From positions 1-12,829 of the forward strand of contig JADHYP010000016.1 of NCBI GenBank assembly GCA_016782355.1: a stretch of 12,829 bases of DNA. The letters run 5' to 3'. The notes under the pieces are model-generated. The model was given only the letters and a program-made list of their open reading frames with translations. It made no database searches and was not told the origin of the DNA. Numbering within the stretch: position 1 is the first letter of the stretch; the number at the start of each line of letters is the position of its first letter. Below are positions 4,991 to 12,829 of the stretch, one piece after another. This DNA is from Candidatus Syntropharchaeum sp. Its GTDB lineage: Archaea; Halobacteriota; Syntropharchaeia; Alkanophagales; Methanospirareceae. The position numbers and the translations under genes are program-made.

Positions 4991-5023
4991 TAGTTTAATA
5001 AATGTATCAAGAGGCGATTGAAA

Positions 5024-6742
5024 ATGGGAGAAATAGTGCGTGTTGACGGGCTGTGTAAGAGATACGAATTACCGGAAATTAGCAAAGAAGTGGTAGCGCT
5101 GGATAATGTATCCTTCGAGATAGGAAAGGGCGAGGTGCTGGGAGTAATCGGGAAGAGCGGTGCTGGAAAGACGACTCTGCTTCGTATGCTTCGCGGTTAC
5201 GAGAAGTTCGATGCGGGGGTCATAGAGATGGAGGGCGTTAAAGTAATGCCCGACTCACCTTACTCGGAGTTCAGAGAGCTGCAAAAAAAGACCGCATTTC
5301 ACCTTCAGCGTTCCTTTGCACTCTGGAACCAGTCAGTGTTGAATAACATCATATTACGACTGCGGGCAGTGCAAACGGGGTTTGAGGAAATACCGCAGAT
5401 TGAGGACGAATACGAAGAGTTAAAGGAGGAGGCGCTTGAAATACTTGACCTCGTTGGGCTGCGAGAGAAGCAAAAGTATTTTTATCCTATTTTAAGCGGT
5501 GGCGAGAAGCAACGCGTTTTGCTTGCACGTCAGCTTGCCAAATCACCTTCTTTATTACTGTTAGATGAGCCAAGCACGATGTCAGACCAGTTGTCTCGCG
5601 AACAACTGCTTGATAGTGTGAAAAGCGTAAATGAAGTGATGGGCATCAGCGTTTTGCTCGTCTCTCACATGCCGGAAGTGCATAGACACCTCTCCGACAG
5701 GCTTATCTGGGTAGATAAAGGGAGAATAATTGATGAAGGCGAGGTAGAGGAGATAACCGGGAAGTTCTTAGCACAGCTCGAGCCGATAAAGCCTTTGGCA
5801 CCTATAAAGGACGAACGCGACATAATGATTGATATTGACGGCGTATGGAAGAAGTATGTGATATACACGAGCAACACGTTGATAAAGACGATAGAGATGC
5901 CGGATATAAACTTAAAGATACCAAGAGGCGATATACTGGGCGTAATTGGACCCTCGGCAATGGGGAAGACAGTATTGATGCGATTACTTTCTGGGATTGA
6001 GCAGCCGGATAGGGGATGCGTGTTGTACAGGATAGGCACGGTGGACTTCGCTAATATTGCCGCAATCGGTAGTAGAAGAGCAATAGAGGCGAGAAGCAAA
6101 TTGGGTATCTTGCATCAAGAGTTCACGCTCCCTCCATATCAACTCGTTCAGAATGCCTTCGCACAAAAGCTGGGGATAAAGAAGCTCGAGATGGTGCGAC
6201 AGGCAATGGATATCGCGAAGGAGCAGGGAATAAGCGACGTAACGCTCGATGCCCTCCTCAGGATTGCGGACATGTCGGAGTTAGAAGCAAAGCAGAAGCT
6301 CGAAGAGGTAGGCCTCAGCATGGATATACTCGACGAGCTATTCCCGAAGTTTCCACCATCCGAGGCTTTTAAAGCGGCTAAACCTTTCCTCGATGCTCTT
6401 AACCTGCCGGAAGAACTATTCGAGCGTCACAACGGCGAAGCAAGTGCAGGTGAGCACGTCAGGCTGGCAATCGCGGTTCTGATGGCAGCAAAACCGGAAG
6501 TTCTCCTCTTGGATGAGCCTTTTGGTGACCTCGACCCGATTTCGATGCGCATAATAGCAAACTCAATTAAAGAGCTGAATCGTAAATTCAACACCACCAT
6601 TTTGGTGGTAAGTCATCAGCTCGATGTAGTCCGGGAGCTTGCACACGAAGCGATAATGATTGACGAAGGCGAGATAGTGATGCGTGGCGACCCGGATAAG
6701 GTATGCGATGCGTTTATTGCGCTTGGAAAACCGGAACAATAA
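5024..6742 (+). CDS. atwA: Methyl-coenzyme M reductase system component A2 (double ABC ATPase)
   Basis: 572 residues; two ABC ATPase domains in one soluble chain without membrane segments, as in component A2, which supplies ATP-driven activation of methyl-CoM reductase by bringing its Ni-F430 to the Ni(I) state. Domain 1: Walker A GKSGAGKTT from residue 43, signature LSGGEKQR at 157-164, Walker B LLLLDEP with Asp181-Glu182. Domain 2 begins near 267: Walker A GPSAMGKT from 309, a modified signature SAGEH near 474, Walker B VLLLDEP with Asp497, and a D-loop GDLD. The degenerate second signature and the long helical insert between about 390 and 465 match the family as I know it. I chose the ATG at 5024, 9 nt after GAGG (5011-5014); a TTG at 5018 is too close to that site. 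It probably forms its own transcript, ending before tRNA-Glu 35 bp downstream. Confidence 0.93.
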   Translation: MGEIVRVDGLCKRYELPEISKEVVALDNVSFEIGKGEVLGVIGKSGAGKTTLLRMLRGYEKFDAGVIEMEGVKVMPDSPYSEFRELQKKTAFHLQRSFALWNQSVLNNIILRLRAVQTGFEEIPQIEDEYEELKEEALEILDLVGLREKQKYFYPILSGGEKQRVLLARQLAKSPSLLLLDEPSTMSDQLSREQLLDSVKSVNEVMGISVLLVSHMPEVHRHLSDRLIWVDKGRIIDEGEVEEITGKFLAQLEPIKPLAPIKDERDIMIDIDGVWKKYVIYTSNTLIKTIEMPDINLKIPRGDILGVIGPSAMGKTVLMRLLSGIEQPDRGCVLYRIGTVDFANIAAIGSRRAIEARSKLGILHQEFTLPPYQLVQNAFAQKLGIKKLEMVRQAMDIAKEQGISDVTLDALLRIADMSELEAKQKLEEVGLSMDILDELFPKFPPSEAFKAAKPFLDALNLPEELFERHNGEASAGEHVRLAIAVLMAAKPEVLLLDEPFGDLDPISMRIIANSIKELNRKFNTTILVVSHQLDVVRELAHEAIMIDEGEIVMRGDPDKVCDAFIALGKPEQ

Positions 6743-7331: not shown

Positions 7332-8348
7332 TCATTCTGCGCTTTCTTCTGTTTTACTTTCCTCCACCTCTTCACCCTCTTGTGTTCTCGCTGCTATTAA
7401 ATCGCCCCTTGCAACCGAATACAACGGCTCTTTTGCAAGTCTTATCTTCGATATATCAATCTGGAGCTTTGCCTCTCTTAATTTCCGCTCGAACATCTTT
7501 GAAAATCCATCGGGCATGGCGCTTCCTCCCGCAAGTGCAACCGGGAATTCCACTTTTGGTGGTGTAATCTCTGCAAGCTTCCTGTTCAGGTTCTTTATGA
7601 CATACGTTATCAAAGCATCGTAATAAATGGAGAGCGCACCCTCAGGACTTCCAAACTCCACCTCCAAGTCCAATTTAAAGCCCTTTTCCTTTGTCGCACA
7701 TACATGGTCCTTTGGCAACCCCGTTGTAATCGAAACCTGCTCATCAATCCAATCTCCACCTCTGGCTATACGGAATGACATCACTGGCGTGGCTAAATAT
7801 GCAAGCGTAACGTTTGTGAGACCCGCGCCAATGCTTATCCCCAATCCCGTGAAGTCGTAATCCGCAAGCTCTGAATATATCACGCTCAACCCCTCGTCAA
7901 TCACATGCGTTTCGTAAGTCATTCTCCTTGCCAGCGCTTCCATCATCTTCTTGTGATACAATGTGTTCATATCTAAATCTATTGGGTCGGCTGGCGATGA
8001 AATGCACAGTACCTCGTTTCGATAACCTGGCTTTCCTAAAACCCGCTCCACTATCAGCTTTATCATGGGTATCGCATCCTTCTCATTAGGACTTATTATA
8101 CCAAACCTCATCGGTCTTCTCGCGTCTTTCCCGAATATGGTTGCGAATTTAAATGCCTCCTCGCCCAATACGAAAATCCTGTCGTCCTTCTCGATGTAAA
8201 GCACTTTTGAACTATCTAACATCGTCTTCGTGAGGTCGCTCGACTCGAGTTCCAGAAATGCATTCCTCTGCTGCGTGAAAATTACATCGTCCCCCTCTCT
8301 TTCCGAACAGATTATGTTCATGGTTCCTATATCAAGACCTTTTGCCAT
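7332..8348 (-). CDS. Actin/MreB-superfamily ATPase, archaeal actin-like cytoskeletal protein
   Basis: 338 residues. The superfamily motifs appear in order: phosphate-1 GLDIGTMN at residues 4-11, connect-1-like DEGLSVIYSE at 151-160, phosphate-2 GLGISIGAGLTNV at 168-180, RGGDWID at 197-203, and the adenosine motif ALAGGSAMPDGF at 271-282. The core is close in length to MreB and ParM. There is no DnaK-type substrate domain and no obvious amphipathic N-terminal helix as in bacterial MreB. An acidic Glu-rich tail (about 320-338) ends the protein. It is expected to bind ATP and perhaps polymerise (family inference). It lies 103 bp downstream of the CdpA-like gene and two genes from ftsZ on the same strand, so a shape or division role like that of the haloarchaeal actins, or an FtsA-like tether, is plausible. 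The start has GTGA (8360-8357) 8 nt upstream. Confidence 0.85.
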   Translation of the reverse strand: MAKGLDIGTMNIICSEREGDDVIFTQQRNAFLELESSDLTKTMLDSSKVLYIEKDDRIFVLGEEAFKFATIFGKDARRPMRFGIISPNEKDAIPMIKLIVERVLGKPGYRNEVLCISSPADPIDLDMNTLYHKKMMEALARRMTYETHVIDEGLSVIYSELADYDFTGLGISIGAGLTNVTLAYLATPVMSFRIARGGDWIDEQVSITTGLPKDHVCATKEKGFKLDLEVEFGSPEGALSIYYDALITYVIKNLNRKLAEITPPKVEFPVALAGGSAMPDGFSKMFERKLREAKLQIDISKIRLAKEPLYSVARGDLIAARTQEGEEVEESKTEESAE

Positions 8349-8383
8349 TTTTTACGTCACTATAATAAAAGATTCAGGTATGG

Positions 8384-8394
8384 TATTTAAAAGT
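8384..8394 (-). promoter_or_regulatory. Putative TATA box for the actin-like gene
   Basis: Minus-strand CTTTTAAATAC lies about 40 nt before the ATG, leaving room for a short leader containing the GTGA ribosome site. It suggests the gene can be transcribed separately from ftsZ. Confidence 0.35.
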
Positions 8395-8413
8395 TACGCT
8401 AATGCTAATTTTA

Positions 8414-8428
8414 TTACAAACGTTGTAA
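8414..8428. promoter_or_regulatory. Perfect palindrome TTACAA-N3-TTGTAA (candidate operator)
   Basis: TTACAA-ACG-TTGTAA, 6-bp arms with a 3-bp spacer, lies between the CdpA-like stop and the actin-like promoter. It is about 20-30 bp upstream of the TATA-like box, where an activator or repressor dimer could sit. A stem-loop is less likely given the weak AT arms. Confidence 0.4.
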
Positions 8429-8451
8429 AAAATTTTTGAAGTTTGATTCAC

Positions 8452-9285
8452 CTAAGTTTTCTTAACACGGATAAACGAATGAAACTTTTTTATATCGCCC
8501 TTAATTTTATCCTTTATCCCTCCAAATCGTCCCTTCTCAACCGCTTCCTTTCTTAAAACGTCACCCAGGCTCCTTGATATACTCTCAACCTCCACAGAAC
8601 CCGATTTCGTCCTCTCTCCATGGTTTATCGTCTTTCTCAAGCTTATTGCTTCCCCAATATCATCTTTGACCCTGATGGTATCACCACGTGACTCACGAAA
8701 CGCCTTCCCAAATTTCACTTCCTCCACGCCCGGCTCTTTAAATTTCAGTTCACTGGCAGAAAGTTCTATGCTTTTCCTCGTTGCTTCTTCTATGTCTCGC
8801 TCTATCTCCTCATCGGTATATATTTTTATTTCTTCCCCTTCTCGCCCCACCACCGCCTCAGGCTTTCCCTCAATCATCCAGAGAATTGAGTTCGCAAACG
8901 CATTTCCCAATAGCGCCAGAAATCCAACGACGTAGAGAGCAAGAATATAGCTTATAAGTGGATAACGCCAGTTGTGCGGATAATTGGACGTAAAGATGAG
9001 AAGCGCAAGCAATGATGTAAACGCACTCGCACCCACAATACAATACCCGTATCGCGTCTGCCTCATCATCAGATTTATACCCGCTAAAATCAGCGTGGCT
9101 CCAACGCCCGTGAAAATAAAGGTAAGAATGATTTTTTCCGGCTCAGACCCATAGTGTATCCTGAAAATCGTAATAAACGTGGTACCTACGGCTAAGAGCA
9201 CAATGCCTGCCGCAAAAGTCACCGAACCGACGTAATATATAATTGTACCACGATGCAATACGCCTGGTGAGCTTGTGTTAGTCAT
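8452..9285 (-). CDS. Four-TM membrane protein with long cytoplasmic tail, CdpA-like
   Basis: 277 residues. Four hydrophobic segments are at about 14-42, 52-74, 79-98 and 107-130. A charged tail of about 145 residues follows, rich in Glu, Lys and Arg and probably largely disordered, ending in a basic stretch (KGDIKKFHSFIRVKKT). The N-terminal pattern (four TMs, a YPHNW turn between TM3 and TM4, and a GNAFANS-like end of TM4) recalls the DUF7139-type domain of haloarchaeal CdpA, which anchors FtsZ1 to the membrane through its tail; this resemblance is from memory. Lying 51 bp after ftsZ on the same strand strongly supports the same job here. No ribosome site is seen before the ATG, and T-rich runs fill the gap to ftsZ, so translation or transcription signals are unclear. 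Confidence 0.72.
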   Translation of the reverse strand: MTNTSSPGVLHRGTIIYYVGSVTFAAGIVLLAVGTTFITIFRIHYGSEPEKIILTFIFTGVGATLILAGINLMMRQTRYGYCIVGASAFTSLLALLIFTSNYPHNWRYPLISYILALYVVGFLALLGNAFANSILWMIEGKPEAVVGREGEEIKIYTDEEIERDIEEATRKSIELSASELKFKEPGVEEVKFGKAFRESRGDTIRVKDDIGEAISLRKTINHGERTKSGSVEVESISRSLGDVLRKEAVEKGRFGGIKDKIKGDIKKFHSFIRVKKT

Positions 9286-9336
9286 TAGACGGATAAAAAA
9301 TGAAAAAAATGCAGGGTGTGGAAGAATTTACGAGTT

Positions 9337-10437
9337 TCACCGGATAATCTGTATAATATCGCTGATTCCTCTGCTACCTGCATCCACTCCCTTTAGTTTT
9401 GCATCCTCTTCTCTATCTTCGTATATCCCGCCGAATATCCATTTCGGCTCCACACCGGTCATTATCGCCGTTACCCTTGCCTTACCACTGAAATCCTCAC
9501 TTATCCTCGCTCCCCATATCACGTTTGCATCACGATTTAAGTCGTAGGTAAGCAACTCTACGATGTCATTTGTCTCCTTCATCGTGAGATCTGACCCCCC
9601 GGTGATATGTATAAGAGCACCCTTCGCCCCTCGATAGTCCGCGTCCAAAAGCGGATGACTGAGTGCATCAGATACAAGCGATTCGGGCTTATTCTCCGCT
9701 TTCGTCGTCTCGCCTACGAGCATCACGGCAACACCGCCTTCCGCCATTACCGCTTTGAGGTCTGCGAAGTCGAGATTCACCAAAGAAGGTTTTGTTATCG
9801 TCTCTGCAATACCCAGTATTGTACTTGCAATCAACATATCCATTTTTTTAAAGGCATCATTCACCGGAAGGTTCCCCGCGTATTTTAGCAATTTGTCGTT
9901 CTCCAGCACGATAACCGTGTCCGTTACGTCTCTCAATGCCTCTATGCCCTCGGCTGCTCTTTTTCTCCTTATCCTTTCCGCTTCAAACGGGAAAGAGACC
10001 ATGGCAACTACAATTGCACCTGCTTCCTTCGCTACTTCCGCAACGATTGGCGAAGCCCCCGTGCCCGTTCCGCCGCCCATTCCCGCAGTGATGAACACAA
10101 AGTTTTTGTCCGCTAACAATTCTCGTAATTCCTCCCTGTCTATTTCCGCAGCCTTTCTCGCTACTTCCGGAGAACCACCGGCTCCCAATCCCCGAGTAAG
10201 CGTTTTTCCTATCAATACCTTCTTTTCGCAGCTTATCGAATCCAGGTGCAGCTTGTCGGTATTTATGGCTATCCTATCTACACCACTCAGTCCTCCTAAA
10301 CGCTCCAATCTGTCCATAGAATTGTTACCTGCTCCACCCACGCCAACTATTGCTATCCGTGGCACCCCAAACCAATCCTTTTCTTCGCTTTCTTCCACAA
10401 CCATCCCCTCTGTACTATATCCTAACATTTTTTCCAT
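9337..10437 (-). CDS. ftsZ: Cell division GTPase FtsZ
   Basis: 366 residues. The tubulin signature GGGTGTG is at residues 121-127, the T1-like GVGGAGNN at 32-39, and the synergy-loop NLDFADL at 221-227 with the acidic residue needed for GTP hydrolysis (Asp226). The protein is full length, with a 24-residue acidic N-terminal extension before the GTPase domain and a short conserved-looking end (GISDIIQIIR) that could be the partner-binding peptide. FtsZ polymerises at mid-cell to form the division ring. I cannot tell FtsZ1 from FtsZ2 by eye. The start has AGGTGG about 5 nt upstream; an ATG three codons later is the alternative. Transcribed divergently from the coiled-coil gene and followed by the CdpA-like and actin-like genes. 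Confidence 0.97.
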   Translation of the reverse strand: MEKMLGYSTEGMVVEESEEKDWFGVPRIAIVGVGGAGNNSMDRLERLGGLSGVDRIAINTDKLHLDSISCEKKVLIGKTLTRGLGAGGSPEVARKAAEIDREELRELLADKNFVFITAGMGGGTGTGASPIVAEVAKEAGAIVVAMVSFPFEAERIRRKRAAEGIEALRDVTDTVIVLENDKLLKYAGNLPVNDAFKKMDMLIASTILGIAETITKPSLVNLDFADLKAVMAEGGVAVMLVGETTKAENKPESLVSDALSHPLLDADYRGAKGALIHITGGSDLTMKETNDIVELLTYDLNRDANVIWGARISEDFSGKARVTAIMTGVEPKWIFGGIYEDREEDAKLKGVDAGSRGISDIIQIIR

Positions 10438-10503
10438 TTTTCCACCTTTTCTTTTTCTATCATTTTCATACGTTTTCGTAATTGTCTTCTTAGGAAGAAG
10501 GGG

Positions 10504-10520
10504 TTATATAAACTTTTCGG
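10504..10520 (-). promoter_or_regulatory. ftsZ promoter (BRE/TATA)
   Basis: On the minus strand CCGAAAAG is followed by TTTATATAA, a good BRE plus TATA box about 70 nt before the ftsZ ATG. It is a near mirror copy of the divergent promoter at 10543-10560. Confidence 0.65.
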
Positions 10521-10542
10521 TTGAGCACATTATAAATAGTTT

Positions 10543-10560
10543 CCAGAAAAGCTTATATAG
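10543..10560 (+). promoter_or_regulatory. Promoter of the coiled-coil/PRC gene pair (BRE/TATA)
   Basis: CCAGAAAA followed by GCTTATATAG lies about 70 nt before the ATG at 10625. A start near 10582 would leave a leader containing GGGGGAG (10603-10609) and GAGG (10612-10615). A further TATA-like ATTATAAATA (10529-10538) lies between the two divergent promoters. Confidence 0.6.
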
Positions 10561-10624
10561 AAAGGGAAAAAATAAATGATAAAAATTTCTTTTACATCCT
10601 CCGGGGGAGAAGAGGCGAGTTAAA

Positions 10625-11527
10625 ATGGTGGAAAAATTTAACGAAAAGGGGAATGCGTTAGCTGCTGAATATTGGCGTTTGAAAGAGTTAAAAGGCAGCG
10701 AAACAGGCGGGAATAGGTTAGAAGAGATAGAAAAGCTATTGGAAAAGGGGATAGGGGGAAAGCTAAGGGAAAAATTGGATGCCGAAGCGAAGAAGCTGAG
10801 GAAAGAGAAGGAAGATAGAAGCACTGCATTTGTGAGATTAGAGGAAGTTAAAAAGGAAATATTAGAGCTAACGGCGGATTTAGCCCCTAATCTCGACCTC
10901 TTTGAAGATGGCTTCTTCCCCTACGATAGCGAACACGAGCCGATTTCCGAGACTTTTTTCTCCGCTCTTACCGAGATATTTTTTGGCACGCCGCACTCAA
11001 GTATTCAATTCAAAGTGGCTAATTTCTCTAAGGATGGAATAGAAATTCATTCGCGGGATGAGAATTCATCTTTAAATATCCTGGGGTACGTAGTGACGAT
11101 AATACAGGAAGCAGCGAAGAAGATGCTCCGCGAGGAGAATAATATAGATAAAAGTTGTGAGCTACTCAAACAGAATGAATACGCTTTTATTGCATTGGGG
11201 ACGTTGATCAAGGAAGGGAAGCGGCTGAGGCTAAAGGAAATAAAGGAAATTTCGCACCGGGAGGATAAGGCGTATAAAGAGCTTATGAGAGATACCTATG
11301 ACCGGGAACTTGTTAATGGTGTAGAGTATTTGGTGAGCGATAAGTGGGAATATAACCTGGTGAAGGAATATAATGGGGAATACGAAGTGACGGACTTTGG
11401 CGAGTGGGTATGGCGGATTTGTAATGTCGAAGCGAGCGAAGAGGAAGGGAGAGGGGGAGGGAGAAGAAAAGGCATTTCAAATTCGAATTTGAATATTTGT
11501 AAGATACTGAAGTTTTTAAAAAGGTGA
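10625..11527 (+). CDS. Coiled-coil protein of unknown family, divergent from ftsZ
   Basis: 300 residues; I do not recognise the family. Residues 1-80 are highly charged with heptad-like Leu spacing, consistent with a coiled coil. Residues about 85-200 form a mixed globular region. Residues about 205-275 are helical and end with VTDFGEWVWRI, which looks like the wing of a winged helix. The tail is odd: a Glu/Gly/Arg-rich purine tract (EEEGRGGGRRKG), then a segment containing an 18-bp perfect DNA palindrome, then KILKFLKR, so the natural C-terminus may have been altered. No signal peptide or TM. Start supported by GAGG 9 nt upstream. It shares a divergent promoter region with ftsZ and lies 25 bp before a PRC-barrel gene and upstream of CetZ, so a cytoskeletal or division partner is a reasonable guess, no more. 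Confidence 0.8.
   Translation: MVEKFNEKGNALAAEYWRLKELKGSETGGNRLEEIEKLLEKGIGGKLREKLDAEAKKLRKEKEDRSTAFVRLEEVKKEILELTADLAPNLDLFEDGFFPYDSEHEPISETFFSALTEIFFGTPHSSIQFKVANFSKDGIEIHSRDENSSLNILGYVVTIIQEAAKKMLREENNIDKSCELLKQNEYAFIALGTLIKEGKRLRLKEIKEISHREDKAYKELMRDTYDRELVNGVEYLVSDKWEYNLVKEYNGEYEVTDFGEWVWRICNVEASEEEGRGGGRRKGISNSNLNICKILKFLKR
11476..11493. repeat. 18-bp perfect palindrome within a coding end
   Basis: TTCAAATTCGAATTTGAA equals its own reverse complement. It sits in the last 20 codons of the coiled-coil gene, about 60-75 bp before the PRC gene start. Confidence 0.75.
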
Positions 11528-11552
11528 AGGGGGAGGAAAGAAAGGAGAGGAA

Positions 11553-12266
11553 ATGAGGAGGAAGAGGGAGAAGGAAAGAGAAGAGGAGGAGAAAGTAGTT
11601 GCATACTTAAGATCACGACTGTTTCCGTGGAATTTCATTTTTGAGGACGTCGAAGAAGATGCGATAAAACATTTTGTCACGTATGCAATCCAAATTTGCG
11701 AGGGAAAGGGGATAGATAAGCGGTCTATATCGGTAGAGGGGGTGGAGATAAAAGAGTTGATTATAAAGGAAGTAAAAGAGGCGGTGAACGATTATCTATT
11801 TGATGCAAATGACCGCGATATGGTAAGAATGCATGGCGATTTCGCGGGTAGTTATCCTTTTGCATTCGCTCAATGTTTGGCGCATACAATTTTACACCGG
11901 CTTGGACTGGAGATGGAGGACGTGGTGGACGTGAACGCGATTAGTGAGTTACTGGGGCAGGATATAAAAGAGATAAAAGGGAGAGTGTTATTTATCAGGG
12001 ACTTAATAGCGAAGAATGAAAATAAAGCAATGAAGATGTTTGGAAAATCAATTCTGGATAAAAAAGTCATAATGGCAGGAGGGGAGTGTATAGGAAGCGT
12101 GGGGGATATTGTTTTTGATGCCGGAACGGGGAACGTGGAGGGATTAGTGGTAAATCACCAAAAAGGCGCGGGTTTTAAAAAAAGCCGGATATCCATGCAA
12201 GACGTGCGTTTAAATATGTATAGTAAGAACATTGTTTTAAAATATTCAAATTACGATAAAAAATGA
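11553..12266 (+). CDS. PRC-barrel protein with unrecognised N-terminal domain (CdpB-like candidate)
   Basis: 237 residues. A short, extremely charged start (residues 1-14, Arg/Lys/Glu only after Met) is followed by a helical domain of about 150 residues that I cannot assign. The C-terminal part from about 164 to 234 is a PRC-barrel: KKVIMAGGECIGSVGDIVFD, then GNVEGLVVNH and a final strand pair, a fold that usually mediates protein contacts. In haloarchaea the PRC-barrel proteins CdpB1/CdpB2 link SepF to the division ring; those are shorter, so this would be an extended relative or an independent PRC fusion (inference). The ATG has GGAGAGG directly upstream (11544-11550), embedded in a purine-rich spacer with several overlapping Shine-Dalgarno-like runs. 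Likely co-transcribed with the coiled-coil gene; CetZ follows after 86 bp. Confidence 0.82.
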   Translation: MRRKREKEREEEEKVVAYLRSRLFPWNFIFEDVEEDAIKHFVTYAIQICEGKGIDKRSISVEGVEIKELIIKEVKEAVNDYLFDANDRDMVRMHGDFAGSYPFAFAQCLAHTILHRLGLEMEDVVDVNAISELLGQDIKEIKGRVLFIRDLIAKNENKAMKMFGKSILDKKVIMAGGECIGSVGDIVFDAGTGNVEGLVVNHQKGAGFKKSRISMQDVRLNMYSKNIVLKYSNYDKK

Positions 12267-12280
12267 AGAGATGATTCTCT
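12267..12280 (+). terminator. Weak hairpin after the PRC-barrel stop codon
   Basis: AGAGA-TGAT-TCTCT begins at the base after the TGA stop. The stem is only 5 bp and no T run follows, so termination is uncertain. Confidence 0.25.
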
Positions 12281-12281
12281 A

Positions 12282-12313
12282 CCAACACATTTATATATTA
12301 TGAGGAATGTTGG
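12282..12313 (+). promoter_or_regulatory. Promoter region of the CetZ gene flanked by an inverted repeat
   Basis: A TATA-like TTTATATATT (12290-12299) is bracketed by CCAACA (12282-12287) and TGTTGG (12308-12313). The start point would fall near 12320, giving a leader with AGGGGG before the GTG. The flanking repeat could be an operator overlapping the promoter. Confidence 0.45.
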
Positions 12314-12352
12314 CAGTAATGAAGTGTATAAAGAAGAGAAAGGGGGAATAAA

Positions 12353-12829
12353 GTGAGAGTGTTTATGATAGGCTATGGGCAAGCCGGGGGAAGAGTAGCG
12401 GATTCATTTGTAGAGTTTGCTAACCGAACGGGGCAGAATTTCGTGGTTCGTGCATTGGCCATTAATACAGCGAAGGCGGATTTGCTTGGAATAACGACCA
12501 TACCAATGGAAGACAGGCTGCTTGTAGGGGAGTCATTAACGAAGGGGCATGGGATAGGAGCAGATAACGAATTAGGGGCGAAGGTTGCCACTGATGAACT
12601 TTATACGATTCAGAGTGCAATAGACAAACGCGGGACACACCAGATTGATGCTTTCCTGATAATAGCAGGTCTGGGCGGTGGAACGGGTTCCGGAGGTGCG
12701 CCAGTATTGGCAAGAAGGCTGAAGAAGCTATACGAGGAGCCGGTTTATGGACTGGGGATTTTACCCTCGAAGGACGAAGGGAGCTTATATTCTTTAAATG
12801 CCGCAAGGAGCCTGATGTCGTTCGTGAAC
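12353..12829 (+). CDS. cetZ: CetZ-family tubulin-like GTPase (3' partial)
   Basis: 159 residues visible from a GTG start at 12353, with AGGGGG (12340-12345) upstream; no ATG lies in frame before it, and the frame stays open to the window end. The N-terminus MRVFMIGYGQAGGRVAD, then INTAKADLLG, GHGIGADNELGA and the tubulin signature GGGTGSGGAP (within LGGGTGSGG), followed by EPVYGLGILPSKDEGSLYSLNAARS, matches CetZ proteins rather than FtsZ, whose signature reads GGGTGTG. CetZ1 of Haloferax controls cell shape and motility, not division itself (established). The presence of a CetZ next to an FtsZ locus means this cell carries two tubulin-family filaments. The C-terminal half lies outside the window. 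Confidence 0.95.
   Translation, partial: MRVFMIGYGQAGGRVADSFVEFANRTGQNFVVRALAINTAKADLLGITTIPMEDRLLVGESLTKGHGIGADNELGAKVATDELYTIQSAIDKRGTHQIDAFLIIAGLGGGTGSGGAPVLARRLKKLYEEPVYGLGILPSKDEGSLYSLNAARSLMSFVN

Follow-up and report, generated by a model that had tools for sequence, protein, structure and literature searches.

The locus and its genes

The window is the 12,829-nucleotide stretch of DNA analyzed here, and the locus of interest occupies its positions 7332-12829, the latter being the end of the contig. Profile searches and open reading frame coordinates show that this region encodes volactin, a DUF7139 protein, FtsZ, an uncharacterized 300-aa protein, a PRC-barrel protein, and a partial CetZ. 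An initial annotation had predicted FtsZ, CetZ, an actin-like ATPase, a four-TM protein, and a PRC-barrel protein in a probable methane- or alkane-metabolizing archaeon. All five are present in the sequence, and named relatives place the genome in the Methanophagales (ANME-1), a methane-cycling group. ANME-1 archaea are methane consumers whose cell biology has, to our knowledge, been little studied. Profile searches bore out most of the predicted family assignments, with the exception of the CdpA-like and CdpB-like labels. The 300-aa gene (10625-11527, plus strand), the most novel member of the locus, had gone uncounted. Because each homologue search scored approximately the 8000 best candidates, the counts of homologues given below are lower bounds.

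Volactin and its membrane-protein neighbor

The gene at 7332-8348 (minus strand) encodes volactin (VolA), an actin-superfamily filament protein of 338 aa. Like volactin of Haloferax volcanii, it matches PF25216 over almost its full length (residues 1-320; 417.8 bits, cut-off 35), and it is 51-98% identical to volactins from haloarchaea, Methanosarcinaceae, Archaeoglobaceae, and ANME-1. Unlike its H. volcanii counterpart, it is encoded together with FtsZ2 and a DUF7139 protein. The latter (8452-9285, minus strand; PF23600, 38.7 bits, cut-off 30) has 277 aa, with four hydrophobic segments between residues 13 and 135, called by simple hydropathy rather than a trained predictor, and a charged tail at about residues 148-277. 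A phage collection held no match to it.

The open reading frame directly upstream of volactin encodes a DUF7139 protein in 77 of 78 cases tested across haloarchaea, Archaeoglobaceae, Methanosarcinaceae, GoM-Arc1, and ANME-1. Only eight of 51 ANME-1 genomes carry volactin, and all seven ANME-1 genomes with DUF7139 above cut-off also have volactin, with the pair adjacent. In the eighth volactin-bearing genome, the contig starts too near the gene to show DUF7139. This pairing makes the DUF7139 protein a likely membrane partner of volactin, and from it we infer that the two proteins bind each other physically.

The four-TM protein had been labeled CdpA-like, a candidate FtsZ anchor. A DUF7139 domain is indeed common to both it and the paralogue at the CdpA position of a Haloferax-like genome. 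However, that haloarchaeal paralogue carries a C-terminal, Cys-rich DUF7140 tail, which the window protein lacks, and the latter groups outside the CdpA-position clade and travels with volactin. The same division runs through the wider family. None of the 78 volactin-linked proteins matches DUF7140 at E 0.001, whereas both of the two scanned DUF7139 proteins not linked to volactin do; likewise, the Cys motif occurs in 0 of 75 volactin-linked proteins versus 16 of 18 unlinked ones. We therefore reject the assignment to CdpA. An acidic tail motif is not universal among these DUF7139 proteins (0/11 in Archaeoglobaceae, 2/14 in Methanosarcinaceae). CdpA of H. volcanii, a division-related membrane protein, is presumably HVO_0739. 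The available portion of PMC12186497 names CdpA and cites the HVO_0739 paper (PMC8406309).

FtsZ2 and the shared intergenic region

The FtsZ at 9337-10437 (minus strand; 366 aa; TIGR00065, 384.7 bits, cut-off 295.2) is a division GTPase that falls in the FtsZ2, not the FtsZ1, clade of our tree. There it groups, with support of 100/99, with a Haloferax-like gene whose position in genome G235 marks it as the orthologue of haloarchaeal FtsZ2 (HVO_0581). The surroundings differ: the window ftsZ2 diverges from the 300-aa gene, whereas haloarchaeal ftsZ2 is co-transcribed with cdrS, according to the accessible part of PMC8406309. A second FtsZ of the same genome lies on contig C10 and is followed by SecE- and Spt5/NusG-like genes, these two names being assigned by eye.

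Between the two divergent transcription units lies a 187-bp intergenic region (10438-10624) with a block that is conserved in an alignment of 21 ANME-1 genomes. It includes an archaeal BRE/TATA-like ftsZ2 promoter, CGAAAAGTTTATATAA read towards ftsZ2 (10504-10519, minus strand; position checked), and a TATA-like element is found at 39 of 47 scanned ANME-1 ftsZ2 starts. An imperfect palindrome, CTTCTTAGGAAG (consensus CTTCTTAAGAAG), sits at 10486-10497, where it separates the TATA element from the beginning of ftsZ2. It recurs with no more than one mismatch at 23 of 47 ftsZ2 starts, in a scan that omits locus L241, whose FtsZ is cut and below the score limit.

The 300-aa protein, the PRC-barrel protein, and CetZ

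Divergent from ftsZ2, the 300-aa protein has no above-threshold match in Pfam or NCBIfam. Its predicted structure has N-terminal helices, including a long helix at residues 46-84, a winged-helix-like domain in its C-terminal part (about residues 171-280), and a disordered C-terminal end. A plain Foldseek search with this model returned nothing at E 0.001 (best 0.25), and a profile search of solved structures gave nothing useful for the protein. Winged-helix regulators of several kinds score alike against the model (RosR 11.7; MarR and PadR types about 8.4-9.6), and the fold is a common one. The VIA-align comparison barely probes the N-terminal part of this model or of that for the PRC-barrel protein, its rows being confined to residues 171-280 and 157-237, respectively. 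For three of the proteins of the locus, there was no match in PHROGs.

The PRC-barrel protein (11553-12266, plus strand) has 237 aa, with a helical N-terminal region and a C-terminal PRC barrel; the PF05239 match (30.6 bits, cut-off 21.2) is confined to residues 162-218. By profile and by fold, the barrel resembles the Archaeoglobus fulgidus CdpB1/CdpB2 structures (E 1.7e-7 in the profile match to 8qzo; fold match to the PRC domains of 8onw and 8qzo, with a Foldseek E of 6.7e-4 to 8onw). It differs from them in its helical N-terminal part of about 160 residues. According to the part of PMC11188069 available, PRC proteins and SepF form a complex by which FtsZ is recruited. We reject the assignment of the window protein to CdpB: it is not a small PRC-only protein, and each of the eight other ANME-1 genomes searched has, in addition to it, a pair of small stand-alone PRC genes (open frames of 89-173 aa), with one such gene found in the incomplete genome of the window itself. 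It is a third PRC type next to two small CdpB-like ones.

The last gene (12353-12829, plus strand) encodes the N-terminal 159 aa of CetZ, a tubulin-like GTPase (PF00091, 102 bits), and is open at its end because the contig stops at 12829. As the window copy is partial, its grouping relative to FtsZ was determined on a full-length relative from genome G093, which is 86-91% identical to it over the shared part and falls in the CetZ clade of the tree. Some CetZ matches contain stops; at the two loci re-read (L249 and L281), these come from matches that overrun the start of the gene, and the frames are intact.

Three units, each with its own distribution

The initial annotation read the locus as a single coordinated module. 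A neighborhood survey supports conservation of its parts but not of the whole: all six genes occur together in only three genomes, and the locus is a meeting place of three units rather than one conserved six-gene module. In unit 1, the DUF7139 gene precedes volactin. Unit 2 is the run of 300-aa protein, PRC-barrel protein, and CetZ; the 300-aa and PRC genes are neighbors in 53 of 54 genomes, with CetZ following them in 46 of 54. Among the eight genomes without CetZ after the PRC gene, the contig ends in four. Unit 3 is FtsZ2, whose surroundings we read in 44 of the 51 ANME-1 genomes of the family; in 21 of these 44, which represent seven genera, it is transcribed divergently from unit 2. It lies upstream of unit 1 in five genomes, and the FtsZ2-DUF7139-volA linkage, with or without an adjoining CetZ unit, is found in four genera (g1, g2, g5, and g7). 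In three genomes of genus g8, the PRC gene alone remains beside FtsZ2, as if the array were eroding.

Each unit also exists without the others in other lineages. Outside ANME-1, neither FtsZ nor CetZ was found in the 73 named volactin loci (L069-L141), some of which are on short contigs, and in genome G098, the three units lie on separate contigs. The arrangement goes beyond chance: many genomes repeat the DUF7139-volactin pair, the 300-aa-PRC-CetZ run, and the divergence of FtsZ2 from the 300-aa gene. Nor are the haloarchaeal counterparts always separate genes, as had been supposed. In the Haloferax-like genome G235, a CetZ gene adjoins volactin and DUF7139, in agreement with the H. volcanii tags HVO_2013 for CetZ5 (PMC10927574) and HVO_2015 for VolA (PMC10869688), as given in the accessible parts of those papers.

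Discussion

We show here to which families the genes belong, how they are ordered, that three units are conserved, and that the region between the operons contains a conserved promoter element for ftsZ2. Most probably, a single FtsZ2 promoter region separates two divergent operons, with ftsZ2-DUF7139-volA to one side of the 187 bp and 300-aa protein-PRC-cetZ to the other, which we infer to be co-regulated. By orthology, FtsZ2 would form the constricting division ring. The DUF7139 protein would sit in the membrane, where its charged tail may hold the tips of volactin filaments. Judging from the conserved gene order, CetZ filaments could form a complex with the PRC-barrel and winged-helix proteins, making up a second, tubulin-like skeleton unit. 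With units 1 and 2 brought beside FtsZ2 in ANME-1, shape filaments would be made at the same time as the division ring, following the cell cycle. We put this explanation, supported by the recurrence of the units, by their linkage to FtsZ2, and by conservation of the ftsZ2 promoter block in the shared region, at slightly better than even.

Joint production is weakened by the small number of genomes with the complete set and the separate occurrence of the units. It is also weakened by the behavior of H. volcanii volactin, whose filaments form independently of the division site, according to the available text of PMC10869688. The same observations speak for a rival account, which we consider a serious contender even though it is probably not correct: two or three ancient, independent units (DUF7139-volactin; 300-aa protein-PRC-CetZ) merely came to lie next to FtsZ2 in an ancestor of ANME-1 and have been inherited since then without any joint function. 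A single event can explain linkage that is inherited within one family. However, FtsZ2 has stayed linked to the 300-aa gene in seven genera and to DUF7139-volA in four, and the Haloferax-like genome shows a second lineage joining CetZ to volactin-DUF7139.

The winged-helix-like domain raises further alternatives. The 300-aa protein could be a regulator of the divergent promoter, the locus then amounting to FtsZ2 and its regulator with PRC and CetZ as passengers, and the ftsZ2 palindrome would be a possible target. But the palindrome is exact in three loci of g8, a genus in which we found no 300-aa gene, and for this reason it does not join the two operons. Several genomes bearing the 300-aa gene (for example, G064, G070, G133, and G295) also lack the palindrome or have a weak form of it, and the constant neighbors of the 300-aa protein are PRC and CetZ, not FtsZ2. 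We regard a regulator of this kind as unlikely. Slightly less probable still is that 300-aa-PRC-CetZ forms a DNA-positioning system like TubZR, with a CetZ filament and a winged-helix DNA-binding adaptor. The fold match to TubR of the TubZRC plasmid partition system is unspecific, given the many regulators that score alike, and the 300-aa protein differs from TubR in its extra helical N-terminus and its PRC partner; TubZRC is not known to include a PRC protein. A broader version, about as improbable as the regulator, would see an undescribed archaeal tubulin system in which a TubR-like winged-helix adaptor ties CetZ to DNA and the PRC-barrel protein connects the filament with the division machinery. 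This system would be wired, in ANME-1, to FtsZ2 and, via the FtsZ2 operon, to membrane-anchored volactin, so that one locus might run chromosome position, shape, and constriction.

The locus bears on a question raised in a review, how the CetZ shape machinery connects to the FtsZ1/FtsZ2 rings (PMC7617429, in the part available). The CetZ-PRC run that lies back to back with FtsZ2 across seven genera of ANME-1 offers concrete evidence, at the genome level, of this connection, and it provides two new candidate proteins. An earlier survey of CetZ neighborhoods (PMC9856176) concerns the same archaeal family of tubulin-like proteins. Unlike our survey, it lists, in its accessible part, genes for nucleotides, cofactors, sugars, and pili in the vicinity of cetZ and finds that the neighborhoods of Archaeoglobales, Methanomicrobiales, and Methanosarcinales have little in common; the term PRC is absent from its main text. 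Papers naming both CetZ and PRC-barrel proteins report no gene cluster of them in the portions available. We found no published record of units 1 and 2 as such, nor any mention of DUF7139 or HVO_2016, in the literature searched; bioRxiv and most subscription journals lie outside it, and earlier notice is possible.

More generally, the locus suggests new candidates for proteins acting together with cell-skeleton filaments. In H. volcanii, volactin has a role in the change from rod to disk shape, and the tips of its filaments bind the membrane; PMC10869688 suggests volactin-binding factors for filament turnover that have yet to be identified and, in its available part, names no anchor. The DUF7139 gene, which lies beside volactin almost everywhere tested, offers a direct and testable candidate for that anchor, with a homologue in genetically tractable Haloferax.

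Composition of the locus

The window comprises the entire contig C94 (12,829 bases) of a draft genome that is 61% complete. Named volactin relatives place the host in Methanophagales/ANME-1: among the matches listed, the closest volactin (98% identity) lies on a contig of 'Methanosarcinales archaeon 1244-F3-H4-B6', and the next relatives come from Methanophagales MAGs (89–90% identity). The minus strand encodes volactin (7332–8348), a DUF7139 protein (8452–9285) and FtsZ (9337–10437), with intergenic gaps of 103 and 51 bases. Across a divergent gap of 187 bases, the plus strand encodes a 300-residue protein (10625–11527), a PRC-barrel protein (11553–12266) and a truncated CetZ (12353–12829), separated by 25 and 86 bases. 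Further left, the window encodes tRNA-Glu, DprA, an AAA ATPase, a weakly matched PIN-like protein, a fragment judged by eye from its sequence to be a RecQ-like helicase, and a two-domain ABC ATPase (5018–6742). The ABC ATPase is a relative of component A2 of methyl-coenzyme M reductase but scores under that family's curated cut-off. This last gene is convergent with volactin, as it is in a close relative (L062).

A DUF7139 protein paired with volactin

Among 294 genomes sampled across the phylum, 77 match volactin (69 above cut-off) and 94 match DUF7139 (87 above cut-off). We examined the best 80 of 192 confirmed volactin loci, all of them named, and recovered an upstream ORF in 77; two of the others end at contig ends (L062, L098) and L123 gave none. 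With the window included, 77 of 78 upstream proteins match DUF7139 at E 0.001, and the single miss is probably L124, for which the script picked a 188-residue ORF without hydrophobic segments. Within ANME-1, volactin occurs in 8 of 51 genomes and DUF7139 is matched in 10 at E 0.001, 7 of them above cut-off. The gene adjoins volactin in all seven; 264 bases separate the eighth volactin from the start of its contig, and the three sub-threshold matches fall in genomes with no volactin match. Many haloarchaea show a further DUF7139 match within very long open frames, often of at least 900 codons (e.g., G175:C1:2063160–2063591), and in some a long frame also holds a second match to volactin.

The initial annotation had likened the membrane protein to CdpA, which we take to be HVO_0739 of Haloferax volcanii. 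Haloarchaea carry additional DUF7139 genes away from volactin. In a Haloferax-like genome (G235), such an unlinked gene lies ~7 kb from a CetZ gene matching PDB 4b45 (679 bits) and ~15 kb from an FtsZ1-type gene, with an FtsZ2-type gene 155 kb further. In H. volcanii, 4b45 is CetZ2 (PMC9856176), CetZ2 is HVO_0745 (PMC10927574), and FtsZ1 and FtsZ2 are HVO_0717 and HVO_0581, in the same series of tags as HVO_0739 (PMC8406309). Because its spacing fits these tags, the G235 gene is most likely the HVO_0739 counterpart. Its product joins DUF7139 to a C-terminal DUF7140, a domain present in none of the 78 volactin-linked proteins, and a tail cysteine motif marks 16 of 18 unlinked proteins versus 0 of 75 linked ones. 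The DUF7139 tree included 21 unlinked rows, for 18 loci plus three duplicates; 20 of them share a single clade, and the other, L152, which has the acidic helix motif described below, is placed among linked haloarchaeal proteins. We therefore reject CdpA for the window protein, which by its tail domains and motifs and by the tree is of the volactin-linked type.

The share of linked proteins with an acidic helix motif (of the type DEEIERDIEEA) differs by lineage: ANME-1 (7/7), GoM-Arc1 (3/4), MAGs titled Thermoplasmata (6/6), haloarchaea (19/33), Methanosarcinaceae (2/14) and Archaeoglobaceae (0/11). Of the unlinked proteins, 1 of 18 has it. For all motif counts, L104, L117 and L124 were dropped from the linked set and three duplicates from the unlinked set. 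Since the motif is not universal, it is a weaker candidate for a general volactin-binding site.

A conserved run ending in CetZ

No Pfam or NCBIfam family was assigned to the 300-residue protein. Two database searches gave at least 107 and at least 101 homologues in largely overlapping lists, from Methanophagales, Alkanophagales, Syntrophoarchaeum, MAGs named Methanocellales and one Archaeoglobi MAG; among those listed, identity falls as low as 39% against the window protein and 34% between family members. A profile matched 51 of the 294 genomes from the phylum, including 34 from ANME-1. In these 51 plus three further ANME-1 genomes (G294, G295, G296), the PRC gene directly follows on the same strand in 53 of 54, the exception (G118) being a contig end. 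CetZ comes next in 46 of 54 (34/37 in ANME-1, 12/17 elsewhere). The ANME-1 runs without it are at a contig edge (G070, G098) or followed by 2.1 kb free of CetZ (G287); outside ANME-1, the runs in G118 and G155 are truncated, less than 2 kb remains in G147, and G025 and G082 have none nearby. The window's own genome has a second CetZ gene outside the cluster (C105, L281:1119–2270).

The PRC protein has 160 helical residues followed by a barrel of 75. The barrel is akin to Archaeoglobus fulgidus CdpB domains by profile (8qzo, E 1.7e-7) and fold (8onw, 8qzo). The match is to the PRC fold in general and not specifically to CdpB: by fold, a bacterial PRC protein (3htr) ranks first, with similar scores for S. 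islandicus CdvA (9s9i) and for the H chains of photosynthetic reaction centres. Two further small PRC genes (frames of 89–173 residues) occur in all 8 other ANME-1 genomes tested, and one was found in the incomplete genome of the window; these are better CdpB candidates, and we reject the cluster protein for that role. PRC proteins are reported to join SepF in a tripartite complex, which recruits FtsZ (PMC11188069). SepF is present in 48 of 51 ANME-1 genomes and lies, by contig, away from all three units except in G098, where it sits ~4 kb downstream of volactin on the contig of the DUF7139-volactin pair (L035:4193–9649, G098:C135).

FtsZ2 and the meeting of the units

ANME-1 genomes have two main FtsZ types. 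The window FtsZ falls in the FtsZ2 clade with Haloferax-like FtsZ2 (support 100/99). Downstream of the other FtsZ in this genome lie SecE- and Spt5/NusG-like genes (named by eye), a typical FtsZ1 setting. Our FtsZ2 survey covered 47 loci from 44 of 51 ANME-1 genomes. In 21 genomes, spread over seven genera (g1, g4, g6, g7, g11, g12, g13), FtsZ2 is divergent from the 300-residue gene. In three genomes of g8 its divergent neighbor is PRC without the 300-residue gene, and in the loci read from g2, g3, g5, g9, g10 and g108 it is apart from both. FtsZ2 joins DUF7139 and volactin in five of the eight volactin-bearing genomes, from four genera (the window, G005, G064, G093, G113). In G098 FtsZ2 and the pair are on different contigs, G297 is cut, and 5.6 kb downstream of FtsZ2 in G287 lack the pair. 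Three genomes have the complete set of six in one place: that of the window, G093 and G113. No FtsZ or CetZ was found in 73 named volactin loci outside ANME-1 (L069–L141; flanks up to 10 kb, some shorter).

Genus g10 (G179, G142) has extra divergent FtsZ-like genes in tandem, pointing away from an FtsZ2 (L193:8872–12788, L200:2301–6178); the G179 pair has long branches in the FtsZ tree. G295 carries two similar FtsZ2 genes ~7.6 kb apart (L171:9079–17847), either a duplication or an assembly repeat.

In G235, one strand carries CetZ, volactin and DUF7139 as neighbors (L161:7638–11452). At 421 bits to CetZ1 (4b46), this CetZ is neither CetZ1 nor CetZ2 itself. In H. volcanii, CetZ5 is HVO_2013 (PMC10927574) and VolA is HVO_2015 (PMC10869688). 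No CetZ was found near volactin in the other haloarchaeal loci examined. Together with the ANME-1 cluster, the G235 locus thus makes CetZ and volactin neighbors in at least two lineages, in differing arrangements.

Beyond the observed gene families, order and conservation, the DUF7139 protein may anchor volactin, the PRC and 300-residue proteins may act together with CetZ, and the ANME-1 arrangement would allow division and shape proteins to be made together. In H. volcanii, volactin filament tips are reported to contact the membrane and unknown binding factors have been suggested for filament turnover; filament assembly was found not to depend on the division site (PMC10869688), which argues against one joint machine. 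The member families are of known kinds. As far as we searched (most subscription journals and bioRxiv lay outside), the DUF7139-volactin pair, the 300-residue protein-PRC-CetZ run and the 300-residue family are undescribed; the sources compared included the CetZ neighborhoods in PMC9856176.

A palindrome at the ftsZ2 promoter

The divergent region has a single strongly conserved block (10486–10519), also conserved at other ANME-1 ftsZ2 starts. In the direction of ftsZ2 it reads CCGAAAAG-TTTATATAA, an archaeal BRE/TATA form, followed after ~6 bases by a palindrome with consensus CTTCTTAAGAAG. Of 47 ftsZ2 starts scanned, 39 have the TATA form, 23 the palindrome with at most one mismatch and 33 with at most two. 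Because the palindrome is kept where the 300-residue gene lies far away (G005, G108, G294) and also in g8, where none was found, it is an element of ftsZ2, possibly an operator.
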